In this document: positions 1,870 through 24,486 of the stretch, piece after piece | Numbering within the stretch: position 1 is the first letter of the stretch | How the letters are laid out: every line of letters begins with the position of its first letter | Origin: a virus | Strand: one strand, 5' to 3' | Virus record (IMG/VR): IMGVR_UViG_3300025310_000004 | Location: 123,759 to 171,330 of that record | Length of the DNA: 47,572 nucleotides | Program-made: the position numbers and the translations under genes | Notes under the pieces: model-generated | What the model was told of the DNA's origin: nothing | What the model saw: only the letters and a program-made list of their open reading frames with translations | Databases searched by the model: none

Positions 1870-3039
1870 ATGGCACGCTGCGGATGCAGTTCAGAATGCG
1901 CTTGCGTGATCACCGACGGTGACTGCACGACGATCGCGGGCAACGGCAACCCTGGCGCGCCCTACCGGGTGAACCTAGAGATCGATCCGTCCCTCAACAA
2001 CCAGGCCGTCTGCGGCGAGGACGGCCTCCTAGTAGAGCCCCCACAGGCTGGTGACTGCATCGAGGTGGACGATTCGGTCGTCCCGGCGATCATCTCAGTC
2101 GAGGTCGATCCCGACCCAGACAACCAACTCGTCTGCAACCCTGCTGGCCTGTTCGTCAACCCGGCGATCACGGTCGCCGACACCGACTGCATCGACCTAG
2201 AGGGCGACGGGACTCCCGCCGACCCACTGACGGCCTCCCCCATCATCTCGCCGGATGTCGCGAACCTCTTGGAGTGCGTGGCTGCGCCCGACCCCAACCA
2301 GGGCCTCCGTGCCCGGCTGTTCTCGGGTGGGTCCGGTTGTATTGACATCTCCGGTGACGGAACGGCTGGCGATCCGCTCCTGGTTGGCCTTGAAGTCTCT
2401 CCCGACGTGGGCAACACCTTGCAGTGCCGCCCCAACGGAGCGTTTGTCCCGGCCGTTACCCAGGCCCCCATCGAGTACCGGGCGACGCTGCTCCACAACG
2501 GCGTTTGCGGCACGATCCTGCCTCCGGCCGCTGTTGGCGCAACCTCAAGCGCCTTCATCGACTACGACTACACCGAAGAAGCAGTCGGACTGATCCCCTA
2601 CTTGTGTGGCCTTGGTCCCGCCTATGCCAACACCTACATCGAGGTGCCGATCGGCGGCGCGGGCATCTACTTGATCCAGGCAACGCACCCCGCTTGGTCG
2701 ATCCTTCCAGCCAGCGCGGGAGACATGATCCTGAGGTTGCGGCTATGGCGCGGAGATACCACCGGGCGTCTTTCTGACGGCATCGGGCAGTCTGCCCAGA
2801 CTCGTTACTCGACGGTGGTTTCGGCGTTCAACACCCCTTACCTGCACATCAGCAGGACCATCTACCTCAATGATGGCGACTGCGTTGCTGTTGACTTCGC
2901 CGCCGAGGACTACAACGGGGCCTTCGCTGGGACGACCCTTGACACCGGACCCATCTACGGCGCTGGTGCCGTTGGACCCATCGTTCTTGAAACGGCCGGG
3001 CTCCCCTTCTTCCAGATGACAAGGCTTGGTTTGGCATGA
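1870..3039 (+). CDS. Tail fibre / receptor-binding protein with Cys/Gly repeats
   Basis: 389 residues, with AGGAGG nine nt before the ATG. The N-terminal half contains four imperfect repeats of about 40 residues: a Cys strand (GDCTTI, GDCIEV, TDCIDL, SGCIDI), a GDGTPADPL-type turn, then a strand D/SPD-xx-NxLxC followed by a GLFV-type end (GLLVEP, GLFVNP, GAFVPA). This is the pattern of trimeric phage fibre shafts. The C-terminal ~190 residues (from PIEYRATLLHNG) lack the repeats and look like a globular beta-sandwich head, probably the host-contact domain. It shares the C..GLxV strand logic with the gene at 3419. Fibre assignment is inferred from repeats and position. Confidence 0.65.
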   Translation: MARCGCSSECACVITDGDCTTIAGNGNPGAPYRVNLEIDPSLNNQAVCGEDGLLVEPPQAGDCIEVDDSVVPAIISVEVDPDPDNQLVCNPAGLFVNPAITVADTDCIDLEGDGTPADPLTASPIISPDVANLLECVAAPDPNQGLRARLFSGGSGCIDISGDGTAGDPLLVGLEVSPDVGNTLQCRPNGAFVPAVTQAPIEYRATLLHNGVCGTILPPAAVGATSSAFIDYDYTEEAVGLIPYLCGLGPAYANTYIEVPIGGAGIYLIQATHPAWSILPASAGDMILRLRLWRGDTTGRLSDGIGQSAQTRYSTVVSAFNTPYLHISRTIYLNDGDCVAVDFAAEDYNGAFAGTTLDTGPIYGAGAVGPIVLETAGLPFFQMTRLGLA

Positions 3040-3419
3040 GCGCTGTAGACGACGCCTTCTACCAGAACGACTGCGTTCGCGTGATGGCTCAGATCACCAA
3101 GCAGTTGGCCATCGACACCAACGGCAAGATCGCGCCTCAGCAGGACGCCCTTGATGGGGCTGAGGCAACCATCGCCTCTCTTGTCGCCGCTGGCCAGGTG
3201 CCGCCCGCTGACCTGGCGACCAAGACCGACGAGTACGTCCAGGGTGTCAAGGACTCCTACGAAGCGGCCAAGGCCGCATCTGAGGCCAGCCTGGCACTTC
3301 CAGTAGAGGTGCAATCAGCCCTCGGCATCATCCCCGAGCGCGAACAGGCTCGGCTCGACATCGCCAACCAGTGGCTCTTTGCCATCGACCAGGCTTGGAC
3401 TCCGGGGGGTGGCAACTGA
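3036..3419 (+). CDS. Helical tail-associated protein, unknown
   Basis: 127 residues, starting in an ATGA overlap with the fibre gene. It is largely alpha-helical and Ala-rich (ATIASLVAAG, YEAAKAASEAS) and ends in a Gly-rich tail. No known domain recognised. Its stop overlaps the next start (TGATG), so it is translationally coupled between two fibre-like genes. A chaperone or connector role for the fibres is possible but unproven. Confidence 0.6.
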   Translation: MSAVDDAFYQNDCVRVMAQITKQLAIDTNGKIAPQQDALDGAEATIASLVAAGQVPPADLATKTDEYVQGVKDSYEAAKAASEASLALPVEVQSALGIIPEREQARLDIANQWLFAIDQAWTPGGGN

Positions 3420-20802: not shown

Positions 20803-20912
20803 TGCCAGGTGGAGCAGGAAAGGCCAAGAGGTCGTGCCCCATGTGCAAGCCTTACAAGTTCGCGGGCAACATTCGTAGGTTGACCGAGAAGGTTGATCTC
20901 GATGAGCGATGA
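20802..20912 (+). CDS. 36-residue Cys/Lys protein between TerS and TerL
   Basis: A small gene with ATG 20802 overlapping the TerS stop (TGATG) and a stop at 20910-20912 that overlaps the TerL start by 11 bases. Sequence begins MPGGAGKAKRSCPMCKPYKF and ends with a helix (IRRLTEKVDLDER). The CPMC pair and high Lys/Arg content suggest a small metal- or nucleic-acid-binding peptide. The double overlap supports it being real and translationally coupled. Function unknown. Confidence 0.5.
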   Translation: MPGGAGKAKRSCPMCKPYKFAGNIRRLTEKVDLDER

Positions 20913-23900
20913 GCACACCGGCTTCGTAGCGATCCCTCCCGATCTCCTGGCCCACGCCACAGCCGAGGAGCGCGAGGCGTACTACCAGTACCTCCTTGGC
21001 AACGTCATCGCCGCGGATGAGTGGGAACCGTGGATCAGGATGATCTTCCCCCAGGTGGCGGAGAAGCCGTTCTCTGAGGGTCACCAGAAGTTCTGGGAAT
21101 GGGTCTGGCAGGTCGAGCCAGGCACTCGCCCCAAGCCATGGGTGTCGATCTGGCCTCGTGGTCATGGTAAGCGCCTAAAGAGTTCGACACCAATCCTCAC
21201 GACGGAGGGGTGGACGACGCAAGGACAACTCAACATTGGCGACGAGGTGTTTGGACCAGACGGAACCCCAGCCGCCGTCACATGGGTTGGACCAGAAACG
21301 ATGCGCCCCCTCTACAGGGTTCGGTTCACTGACGGGACCGAACTCGTTGCCGATCCCGAGCACGAATGGACGGTGCTGGATCGCGGGCCATACGAGTGGC
21401 GCACGCTTGAGACTCAGGAGATCGCAGCGCAGCGGTACTACTCGGGCGGGCGCGCCAGGTTCATGCTGCCACATCGAGATGCTATTCAGGCGCCACGTCG
21501 AGACCTGTTGATCGACCCCTACCTGCTCGGCTACTGGCTAGGCGACGGAAACCACAAGACTGGTGTGCTGGCCGCTGGCTCGATGGATGACGCTAATGAG
21601 GTTGCACTCAACATCGAGTCCCGTGGCGAGTTGATCAAGAACCGCTACACGCAGGCCAACACGGGATGCAACTACATCGTCATTGACGGTCTACGCAATC
21701 GGCTATCCGCGCTCGGCCTTCTTGGCAACAAGCACATTCCCAGCGGCTACCTCACCTCATCCGAGGAGCAGCGGCGTGCACTTCTGGCCGGGCTGGTCGA
21801 TTCCGATGGACACGTTGACAAGAAGCGCGGCAGGGTCCGCTACGTGTCGCACGACCAGACTCTCGCTGAGGCGGTTCGACTGCTCGCCAGGACGCTTGGC
21901 TACAACGCCACCGTCTGGAGTGAAATCGATGATCGTGAGCCACATCCCGTCACCGATCTAGATGGCGTCGTGACGATGGTGTCTACGGCTGGCACTCGAT
22001 GGGTTGCATCATGGACACCACACGACGGTCTCGGCCAAGGGATGCTCGCCAGGAAGGTTGTCCCCACCTACGCCAAGCGCCAGCGGGTTGGGATTGAGTC
22101 GATCACCCCGGTCGAGTCAGAACCCGGCCTCTGTATCGAGGTCGATCGTGATGATGGCCTCTACCTTGCCGGTAGCGACCTGATCCCCACCCACAATTCC
22201 ACCTCGTCGGAGTTGGCCGTCGTCGTGCTCGCCGCACGTCGCAAGCGTCGCTACGGCATCTACGTCTCCGAGACGCAGGACCAGGCCGACGACCACGTTG
22301 CCAATGTGGCTGCCATGTTGGAGTCGCCCACGATCGAGTTGGCCTACCCCGACCTCGGTGAGCGCCTCATGGGCAAGTTCGGAACGTCCAAGGGCTGGCG
22401 GCGCAACCGCATCCGTACCAAGACCGGCTTCACCCTCGATGCCATGGGCCTCGACTCCGCTGCCCGAGGCGTCAAGTTGGAGGACCAGCGTCCCGACTTC
22501 ATGGTCTTTGACGACATCGATGGCGAGTTGGACACCGATGAGCGCGTCGAGAAGAAGATCAAGACCATCACCCGCAAGTTGCTCCCGGCTGGTTCTCAGG
22601 ACTGCGCCATCTTGATGGTGCAGAACCTCGTGCACGAGAACTCGATCTTCGCTCGCCTCTCGGATGGTCGGGCCGACTTCCTGCGTGACCGCATCGTCTC
22701 TGGCCCAATCCCTGCCATCTGGGACCTTGAGTACGAGGAACTAGAGGGGAAGTTCGTCATCACGGGCGGTGAGCCATCGTGGCCCGAGGGATTCCCTATC
22801 CCGTCGTGCCAGTTGCTCATGAACGACATTGGCCTCTCCGCCTTCCTGGCCGAGTGCCAGCACGAGACGAAGCCACCCGAGGGCGACATCTTCAACCACA
22901 TCGCCTTCGTGCGCGTCGAGCACCACGAGGTTCCGCCGCTTCGTCGTGCGGTGGTGTGGGTTGACCCTGCCGTCACCTCCACCGACTCGTCGGACTCCAT
23001 GGGCATCCAATGTGATGGGCTCGGAGTGGACGACAAGATTTACCGCCTGTTCTCGTGGGAGAACCGCTCGACGCCGTACCGAGCCATCCACCTCGCGATC
23101 GAGAAGGCCCTTGAGTACGGAGCCGACACCGTGGGTGTCGAGACGAACCAGGGTGGCGACCTGTGGCGAGTGGTGTACGACCAGGCATGTGAGGACATCC
23201 GCAACGAGCGCGGTGACCGCCACATGAAGATGCCCCGCTACCGCCAGGAGAAGGCCACCGCTGACCTCGGATCGAAGGTCACTCGCGCTGAGCGCATGTT
23301 GGTGGACTACGAGCGTGGCCTATTCGTACACGTCGAGGGAACTCACCACACGTTGGAGATGGCGCTACGCCGGTTCCCCAAGGTCAAGCCGTTCGACCTC
23401 GTAGACGCCTGCCTGGTGGCTGGCACCCTCGTGGCCACTCCCGACGGGGAGGTGCCGATCGAGTCGATCGTCCCAGGGGATTTCGTCTGGACGCGTCAGG
23501 GGGCGAAGCGTGTTCTCAACGCCGGGCCGACGCGGTTCGATGCCGAGGTCTACGAACTCGTCACGGAAGATGGACGCTCGGTGGTGGGAACCGGAGACCA
23601 TCTTGTCTGGACCCATGAGTGTGGATGGGTTCCATTGGCCCTCGCTGCCGGGCTGACTGTCAGTATTGGCTCATGGACCATCCCGTCGAGGTTGAATACG
23701 CCGGTCGGCGCTATCGCCGCTATCCCAATGCCAAACAGCGCAGCCATCGGGTCTACTACGTGCCCCTCGGGCCAGGGGATCGAATCTACTTGCACCGAAA
23801 GGTCTACATCGATCACTTCGGCCCGATTCCCGAGGGGTGGCATGTTCACCACGTCGATGGTGACCCCTTCAACAACGACCCCGGAAATCTCAGGGCCATT

Positions 23901-24486
23901 TCACCAGGGGAACATCGTTCAACCCATGGGTCAACATGGACAGACCCATCCGACATGGAACGGCATCTCGCAGCCATCCGAACCTTGGCCGCCAAGTGGC
24001 ACGGATCGCCAGAAGGGCTCCAATGGCATTCCGACCACGGACGCTCATCCTGGGAGGGCCGAGCCGAGCATCAACTCCAATGTGTTTGGTGTGGAGAGGC
24101 ATTCTCGTCGCTTGTGGCTTCCACGGGGTTCTGCTCTCAGCGATGCCGATACCGGAAGTTCGAGGCCGATGAATCAAACAAGGACGCCCGGACCTGCGAG
24201 GAGTGCGGAGGCGGGTTCCTCGCTGAACGACGGAAGGCCACCCGCTTTTGCGGCGTCACTTGTCGTAATCGTTCAACCTCGCGGAAGCAGCGCCGTGGTG
24301 TATGACCTGGAAGTTGAGGACGCTCACGAGTTCTTGGCTGATGGGGTTGTTGTGCACAACTGCTATTGGTCGTGGGCCTACTTGGCCGGGCCACTTCACC
24401 GTCGCAAGGCGAAGGTGCGTTCCTCGGCTCGCAAGTACCTCAATGCCGCCGTTGGCATCGGCAACGCTCCTGCCGGGTTCGGCTAG
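20902..24486 (+). CDS. terL: Large terminase subunit (TerL) with two inteins
   Basis: 1194 residues as translated from ATG 20902 (an in-frame TTG at 20893 was rejected). After removing two inteins the extein is about 535 residues, a normal TerL size. ATPase: Walker A WPRGHGK before intein 1, resuming STSSELAVVV, and Walker B DFMVFDDIDGELD. Nuclease: VWVDPAVTSTDSSDSMG, GVETNQGGDLW and DLVDA followed by intein 2, then CYWSWAYL. The first intein splits the ATP site and the second follows the third nuclease Asp, so both activities depend on splicing. It pumps DNA into the capsid. The stop codon shares CTAG with the convergent gene. Confidence 0.85.
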   Translation: MSDEHTGFVAIPPDLLAHATAEEREAYYQYLLGNVIAADEWEPWIRMIFPQVAEKPFSEGHQKFWEWVWQVEPGTRPKPWVSIWPRGHGKRLKSSTPILTTEGWTTQGQLNIGDEVFGPDGTPAAVTWVGPETMRPLYRVRFTDGTELVADPEHEWTVLDRGPYEWRTLETQEIAAQRYYSGGRARFMLPHRDAIQAPRRDLLIDPYLLGYWLGDGNHKTGVLAAGSMDDANEVALNIESRGELIKNRYTQANTGCNYIVIDGLRNRLSALGLLGNKHIPSGYLTSSEEQRRALLAGLVDSDGHVDKKRGRVRYVSHDQTLAEAVRLLARTLGYNATVWSEIDDREPHPVTDLDGVVTMVSTAGTRWVASWTPHDGLGQGMLARKVVPTYAKRQRVGIESITPVESEPGLCIEVDRDDGLYLAGSDLIPTHNSTSSELAVVVLAARRKRRYGIYVSETQDQADDHVANVAAMLESPTIELAYPDLGERLMGKFGTSKGWRRNRIRTKTGFTLDAMGLDSAARGVKLEDQRPDFMVFDDIDGELDTDERVEKKIKTITRKLLPAGSQDCAILMVQNLVHENSIFARLSDGRADFLRDRIVSGPIPAIWDLEYEELEGKFVITGGEPSWPEGFPIPSCQLLMNDIGLSAFLAECQHETKPPEGDIFNHIAFVRVEHHEVPPLRRAVVWVDPAVTSTDSSDSMGIQCDGLGVDDKIYRLFSWENRSTPYRAIHLAIEKALEYGADTVGVETNQGGDLWRVVYDQACEDIRNERGDRHMKMPRYRQEKATADLGSKVTRAERMLVDYERGLFVHVEGTHHTLEMALRRFPKVKPFDLVDACLVAGTLVATPDGEVPIESIVPGDFVWTRQGAKRVLNAGPTRFDAEVYELVTEDGRSVVGTGDHLVWTHECGWVPLALAAGLTVSIGSWTIPSRLNTPVGAIAAIPMPNSAAIGSTTCPSGQGIESTCTERSTSITSARFPRGGMFTTSMVTPSTTTPEISGPFHQGNIVQPMGQHGQTHPTWNGISQPSEPWPPSGTDRQKGSNGIPTTDAHPGRAEPSINSNVFGVERHSRRLWLPRGSALSDADTGSSRPMNQTRTPGPARSAEAGSSLNDGRPPAFAASLVVIVQPRGSSAVVYDLEVEDAHEFLADGVVVHNCYWSWAYLAGPLHRRKAKVRSSARKYLNAAVGIGNAPAGFG
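21172..22197 (+). other. TerL intein 1: class 3-like LAGLIDADG intein (342 residues)
   Basis: Inserted after Lys of the Walker A motif (residues 91-432). The first residue is Arg (RLKSSTPILTTEGW), so there is no N-terminal Cys/Ser nucleophile. Block B is DPEHEWTV (His-x-Trp), block F has Cys in GLCIEVDRDDG, and it ends IPTHN before Ser+1. This is the class 3 plan, but with Ser instead of the usual Thr. LAGLIDADG motifs: YLLGYWLGDGN and LLAGLVDSDGH. Confidence 0.78.
23410..24360 (+). other. TerL intein 2 containing an out-of-frame HNH gene (317 residues)
   Basis: Begins CLVAGTLVATPDGEVPIE, has block B VVGTGDHLVWT and ends with block F/G VYDLEVEDAHEFLADG...VVVHN, followed by Cys+1, so it is a class 1 intein (residues 837-1153). 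About 600 bases in its middle read in the intein frame as Ser/Thr/Pro-rich low-complexity sequence with no stop, while the same bases in another frame encode an HNH endonuclease. Confidence 0.75.
23673..24305 (+). CDS. HNH homing endonuclease nested out of frame in TerL intein 2
   Basis: 210 residues from ATG 23673, stop TGA at 24303-24305, in a frame different from TerL. The HNH core is IYLHRKVYIDHFGPIPEGWH, HHVDGDPFNNDPGNLRA, then EHRSTH, and the C-terminus has two zinc modules (CVWCGEAF..FCSQRC and CEECGGGF..FCGVTC). It has its own start but no clear ribosome-binding site. Such nucleases promote spread of their host element by cutting an intein-less allele. Alternative: two compensating base errors could have shifted an in-frame domain; its own start and stop argue against that. 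Confidence 0.8.
   Translation: MDHPVEVEYAGRRYRRYPNAKQRSHRVYYVPLGPGDRIYLHRKVYIDHFGPIPEGWHVHHVDGDPFNNDPGNLRAISPGEHRSTHGSTWTDPSDMERHLAAIRTLAAKWHGSPEGLQWHSDHGRSSWEGRAEHQLQCVWCGEAFSSLVASTGFCSQRCRYRKFEADESNKDARTCEECGGGFLAERRKATRFCGVTCRNRSTSRKQRRGV

Follow-up and report, generated by a model that had tools for sequence, protein, structure and literature searches.

We analysed a 47,572-nucleotide stretch of viral DNA (IMG/VR record IMGVR_UViG_3300025310_000004, positions 123,759 to 171,330; hereafter the window, numbered from its first letter) around its terL gene, which encodes the terminase large subunit (TerL), and in particular the second of two inteins in that gene and an HNH endonuclease gene lying inside it. 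The TerL open reading frame (ORF) is stop-free from 20893 to 24486 with its first ATG at 20902, and the part before intein 2 matches the terminase large subunit family phrog_38 in PHROG (1.5e-25). The features of the gene and of intein 2 are listed below, with model confidence given as predicted local distance difference test (pLDDT).

20902..24486, + strand: terL gene (terminase large subunit) with two inteins in one open frame (ORF)
23410..24360, + strand: intein 2, 317 residues, class 1 by its residues, in the TerL nuclease motif VDA/CYWSWAY
23410..23676, + strand: N-terminal splicing half, residues 1-89, blocks A and B, pLDDT about 97
23616..23618, + strand: TGA stop shortly before the HNH gene, in the frame of that gene
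23673..24305, + strand: nested HNH_3 homing endonuclease gene in the -1 frame relative to TerL, 210 residues plus TGA
23692..24225, + strand: intein 2 residues 95-272, predicted to be disordered in the intein frame (AlphaFold)
24244..24360, + strand: C-terminal splicing half, residues 279-317, blocks F and G, ending HN, pLDDT about 96
24301..24306, + strand: Tyr-Asp codons of intein block F (TAT GAC), which contain the TGA of the HNH gene
24361..24486, + strand: C-extein of TerL, first residue Cys+1 (translation)

Two proteins encoded by one stretch of terL

Intein 2 starts CLVAGTLVATPDG and ends VVVHN, followed by Cys+1. Its two ends are matched in Pfam by Hint_2 (34.0 bits, cut-off 28.4) and by Intein_splicing (34.1 bits, slightly below the cut-off of 35.8), and they reach the cut-offs of the NCBIfam models intein_Nterm and intein_Cterm. 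Cys1, the block B residues T61 and H64, which are conserved in 44 relatives, and the HN/C junction are those of a class 1 intein, and the frame is continuous with both exteins. The element is not a canonical endonuclease-bearing intein, as the HNH domain lies in the -1 frame and the intein frame over it is disordered, nor is it a split intein within the window, where a single ORF holds both halves. The profiles and the ORF thus bear out the limits and splicing blocks proposed in a first-pass annotation of this DNA.

The HNH gene runs from an ATG at 23673 to a TGA at 24303-24305, and its product matches the Pfam family HNH_3 with 51.2 bits (cut-off 24.8). The HNH core occupies residues 39-81 and is followed by two intact zinc modules of the form CxxC...CxxxC (C137/C140/C154/C158 and C175/C178/C193/C197). 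Residues H59, H60, D62, N67, N68, N72, H81 and H85, invariant among 44 homologues, are all kept, although the nearest HNH relatives are only about 40% identical. Translation and profile agree here with the first-pass annotation, which had described a complete, out-of-frame enzyme with two zinc modules. The stop codon of the gene is formed by the block F Tyr-Asp codons of the intein; the same was seen in several relatives read directly, and TGA is the HNH stop in 86 of the 121 nested relatives described below.

AlphaFold, supplied with an alignment of 44 inteins, predicted a Hint fold for residues 1-89 and 279-317 of intein 2 (pLDDT above 95), with residues 95-272 mostly under 50. A Foldseek search with this model matched the gp41-1 intein (1.9e-6) and other mini-inteins. 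The HNH frame of the same DNA gave a confidently predicted fold with a mean pLDDT of 94.6; a profile search of solved structures found I-HmuI (1u3e) as its sole sequence relative (E=1.2e-4), and the Foldseek match of the HNH model to I-HmuI was weak. As the HNH frame folds and the middle of the intein frame is disordered, the Ser/Thr/Pro-rich, low-complexity middle remarked on in the first pass, which is indeed stop-free, is explained as a shadow translation of the HNH gene.

The other intein of the gene lies upstream:

21172..22197, + strand: intein 1, at the TerL Walker A motif (GHGK/STSS), with an in-frame LAGLIDADG endonuclease (translation, Pfam)

It matches the Pfam families LAGLIDADG_3 (5.7e-11) and Hom_end (5.9e-7). 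The N-terminal nucleophile is absent, and the block residues W (HEW, block B), C (LCIEV, block F) and T (PTHN) suggest a class 3 intein.

Recurrence and constraint on the two frames

The HNH protein was searched by tblastn against isolate phages, viral contigs and prokaryotic genomes were scanned, and the scan loci were classified with profiles for the HNH domain and for the N and C splicing halves. The tblastn search found the HNH gene inside terL, in the -1 frame of an uninterrupted intein, in Tetrasphaera phage TJE1, Acinetobacter phage Highwayman, Rhodobacteraceae phage LS06 and an unannotated faecal phage record. Among 157 HNH clusters (less than 70% identity), 121 are nested in the -1 frame, five of these being prokaryotic genome contigs, and 24 are without an intein; the rest have a broken intein frame (5), only one detected half (6) or an in-frame HNH (1). 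An HNH continuous with the intein frame, the arrangement that would have undone the first-pass interpretation, is almost absent among relatives, with one weak case (L179). A scan with the HNH alone, blind to frame, still gave 67 nested copies among the best 80 HNH relatives. Splice junctions are canonical throughout the nested clusters, the exteins are TerL in nearly all of them, and most insertions fall in the nuclease-domain motif around DNH/xDAxRY, a minority being at Walker B. Recurrence of the same double-coded arrangement in more than 100 divergent phage sequences identifies it as a real and widespread element and not a sequencing error. The whole intein protein as a query against isolate phages found almost no matches, because the middle of the intein is not conserved as protein. 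The out-of-frame HNH gene is unannotated in the terL records ADX42540.1, CAL1778227.1 and WBK39888.1 (L002, L005 and L012), and L178 and L180 each have a single terL gene with two nested-HNH inteins.

The intein frame is open in 121 of the 126 clusters in which splicing halves flank an out-of-frame HNH, down to 28% guanine-cytosine (GC) content; the 5 clusters with intein-frame stops are split forms. The equivalent frame is open in none of 20 full-length free-standing HNH homologues of similar GC content (p=2.6e-20 against the intein-flanked clusters). Relative to synonymous shuffles, free-standing copies have the expected number of stops in this frame (127 observed, 120 expected), whereas nested copies have none where 214 are expected. 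Met followed by a codon starting with A, a pair that gives TGA in the intein frame, occurs in 0/157 nested and 17/57 free-standing cases, indicating that the stop-free constraint extends to the amino acids of the HNH protein. Identity in the HNH frame exceeds that in the intein frame in all 366 pairs (0.51 versus 0.27), and substitutions concentrate at the third positions of HNH codons, equivalent to second positions in the intein frame. These patterns indicate that protein-level selection acts on the HNH frame, and that the intein frame over it is maintained only as a stop-free spacer.

Expression of the HNH protein and competing explanations

A start codon stands at the HNH start in 119 of the 121 nested clusters (ATG in 89), and Shine-Dalgarno matches of five or more bases precede 33% of nested HNH starts versus 5% of 4201 control internal starts. 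These figures support an internal start for the HNH protein in the nested family, as had been proposed from the window; for the window phage such a start is presumed by analogy, since its ATG at 23673 has no Shine-Dalgarno match.

Our explanation, which we hold with considerable confidence, is that intein 2 is a mini-intein with a nested, independently translated homing endonuclease gene in the -1 frame. About 130 folded residues would form the mini-intein in the TerL nuclease active site, and the nested gene would be of the free-standing HNH type. Translation in the TerL frame would give a precursor in which the nested stretch would form a linker of about 180 disordered residues; the two Hint halves would then assemble, splice the intein out and restore TerL. 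Separate initiation at the internal start would yield the HNH enzyme, which may cut intein-free terL near the insertion site, a specificity suggested by that site and by neighbours, and repair could copy intein and nuclease gene together. The first pass had proposed that splicing and mobility are uncoupled. This seems right for the expression of the two activities; mobility itself is probably still tied to the intein, because the HNH gene sits inside it and both would be carried along when a cut is repaired.

Several observations qualify this explanation or weigh against it. Synonymous shuffling of the HNH codons of the window copy leaves the intein frame open in 76% of cases, so that in this GC-rich window a stop-free frame alone is unsurprising and the strength of the case comes from the relatives. 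With the nearest HNH relatives about 40% identical, no close pair shows selection in the window copy. The 'nested' class is itself partly defined by an open frame, and the unconditioned fractions carry the argument. No Shine-Dalgarno match precedes the HNH start, although 46 of the 60 ORFs in the window have one of four or more bases. Finally, splicing could be slowed by so long a disordered insert (about 180 residues).

A programmed -1 frameshift within the intein, fusing the N-terminal splicing half to the HNH protein, could dispense with an internal start, and it would suit both the bare ATG of the window and the fact that all 121 nested HNHs of the family use the -1 frame, since programmed shifts most commonly go in that direction. 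The TGA at 23616..23618 means that any such fusion needs a shift between there and 23673. Only 10 of 121 clusters have a slippery heptamer (X XXY YYZ) in the interval where the shift would have to fall, at a rate of 0.0045 versus 0.0033 in controls, which is no enrichment; a stop usually closes the HNH frame a short way before the gene (median 36 nucleotides), and the HNH start carries a start codon enriched for Shine-Dalgarno sequences. The frame bias also has a simpler cause, as the other frame has about 14 stops per gene in free-standing homologues, and unrelated endonucleases are nested in the +1 frame. We consider a frameshift improbable.

The element might instead be decaying, with an intein that splices and an HNH gene that is dead cargo, its overlapping frame open by chance in a GC-rich genome. 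The shuffles of the window copy and its start without a Shine-Dalgarno sequence would fit, yet every residue invariant in 44 homologues is present in the window HNH, which has a confidently predicted fold, and the family shows strong HNH-frame selection and open frames at low GC content, which makes decay unlikely. A chance open frame as such fits the window taken alone and is ruled out for the family by the free-standing homologues, none of which is open.

An insertion that is not an intein at all, either a bare one or an intron carrying an HNH gene, has a precedent in the ShiLan domain and the Pacc40 insertion, published hidden HNH insertions without splicing domains (PMC11855218). The full set of intein blocks, the HN/C+1 junction and the predicted Hint fold all speak against it here, as do the stop-free TerL frame and an Rfam search of the intein 2 region that returned no intron family at E up to 1; we regard it as very unlikely. 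That two compensating indels conceal an ordinary in-frame HNH intein is scarcely credible even though the window comes from a single metagenomic virus record, since its HNH gene retains a start codon, a stop codon and a further stop upstream, and recurrence of the same offset in 121 independent clusters, including the isolates TJE1, Highwayman and LS06 and five prokaryotic genome contigs, rules such indels out for the family.

Known relatives and other states of the element

Canonical full-length inteins carry a LAGLIDADG or HNH endonuclease in frame. Intein 2 resembles them in having Hint halves at its ends, a nuclease in the middle and a conserved active site as insertion point, but its nuclease gene, with a start and a stop codon to itself, is read in another frame, so that one length of DNA would give rise to two separate proteins. 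In fractured genes, reportedly described by Dassa et al. in 2009, a free-standing endonuclease lies between the halves of a split intein. As there, mini-intein halves flank a separately translated endonuclease gene, and the nearest solved fold is that of the gp41-1 intein; unlike there, the frame of intein 2 is continuous, so splicing would be in cis, whereas its split relatives have stops in the intein frame. The HNH core is shared with the HNH_3 homing endonuclease I-HmuI (1u3e), which is intron-borne instead of intein-nested and differs in the two C-terminal zinc modules. Mycobacteriophage TerL inteins likewise use active-site motifs of phage TerL and occur only in the ATPase domain (Kelley et al. 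2016, PMC5050341), while intein 2 and most of its relatives lie in the nuclease domain.

The closest published case is the 'hidden HNH' of ShiLan, itself not an intein. ShiLan and Pacc40 are stop-free phage gene insertions hiding an out-of-frame HNH gene, in a methylase host; the authors found no features of intein or intron splicing in them, and a disjunct distribution suggests homing (Arsenault et al. 2025, PMC11855218). ShiLan shares with intein 2 an out-of-frame HNH in a stop-free insertion, in the third frame in both, and differs in that intein 2 lies in TerL, has a full set of splicing blocks and is predicted to adopt a Hint fold. Our full-text literature search returned no further report; a preprint on actinobacteriophage inteins with 'non-canonical architecture', known to us through its citation in PMC11855218, may describe overlapping cases, so priority is uncertain. 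The first-pass annotation had known of no intein of this kind. With 121 clusters the arrangement is not unique to the window phage, and ShiLan is a precedent for it without the intein.

Relatives that lack the insert, which the first pass had proposed to look for, exist as mini-inteins of 120-135 residues in the same TerL nuclease motif (L118, L122, L145, L153 and L176). Split TerL inteins, in which an N half ending in a stop is followed by an HNH gene and a C half, were found at these loci:

L004 (Lactobacillus phage CL2), 1670-2771: split TerL intein
L200, 2565-3727: split TerL intein
L206, 2660-3721: split TerL intein
L013 (Vibrio phage 1.238), 2723-3901: split TerL intein

Vibrio phage 1.245 is likewise annotated with a split-intein gene layout, and in L200 a promoter-like pair, TTGACA-17-TACGAT, lies just before the HNH gene. 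Free-standing HNH homologues mostly lie directly behind terL, typically at 30-110 nucleotides. In a quick HNH tree, with about half of the inner branches unresolved, free-standing and nested copies are mixed, with 13 changes of state of which well-supported branches force only 1-2, and a single direction of change between the two states is not demonstrable on it. Taken together, these states point to a mini-intein having been invaded by an endonuclease gene that lay next to its target, and to split inteins as a possible outcome once the stop-free rule is lost, although the direction is our reconstruction.

Other endonucleases are nested in the +1 frame of inteins. A DNA polymerase A intein (L034, 1110-4223) holds a different HNH_3 gene (2674-3231), TerL inteins at the Walker B site hold zinc/HNH genes (L157, 1570-3981; L169, 1522-4050), and a helicase intein (L182, 1690-4440) holds a DUF559/Vsr-like endonuclease (ORF 2393-3016), a similar form of which is in frame in L172. 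As these endonucleases are unrelated, nesting probably arose more than once.

In the textbook picture of an intein, the endonuclease and the splicing domain form one in-frame fusion. In this element the same DNA codes twice and the two would be separate proteins, in a large and divergent family in which selection on the HNH protein and the stop-free rule on the splicing frame are both measurable. We lean towards the view that nested-endonuclease inteins are a widespread class, mainly of phage TerL, and that they may mark the transition of a free-standing endonuclease next to its target into an intein-borne one, with loss of the stop-free constraint leading to split inteins with an endonuclease between the halves. 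The class would have been overlooked because annotation sees one long terminase gene, a systematic gap that leaves an unannotated nuclease in TerL records such as those of TJE1, Highwayman and LS06. As the relatives cover every state, from mini-intein through nested and split forms to free-standing genes beside terL, they open to testing both the route by which endonuclease genes come to lie in inteins and the origin of natural split inteins.

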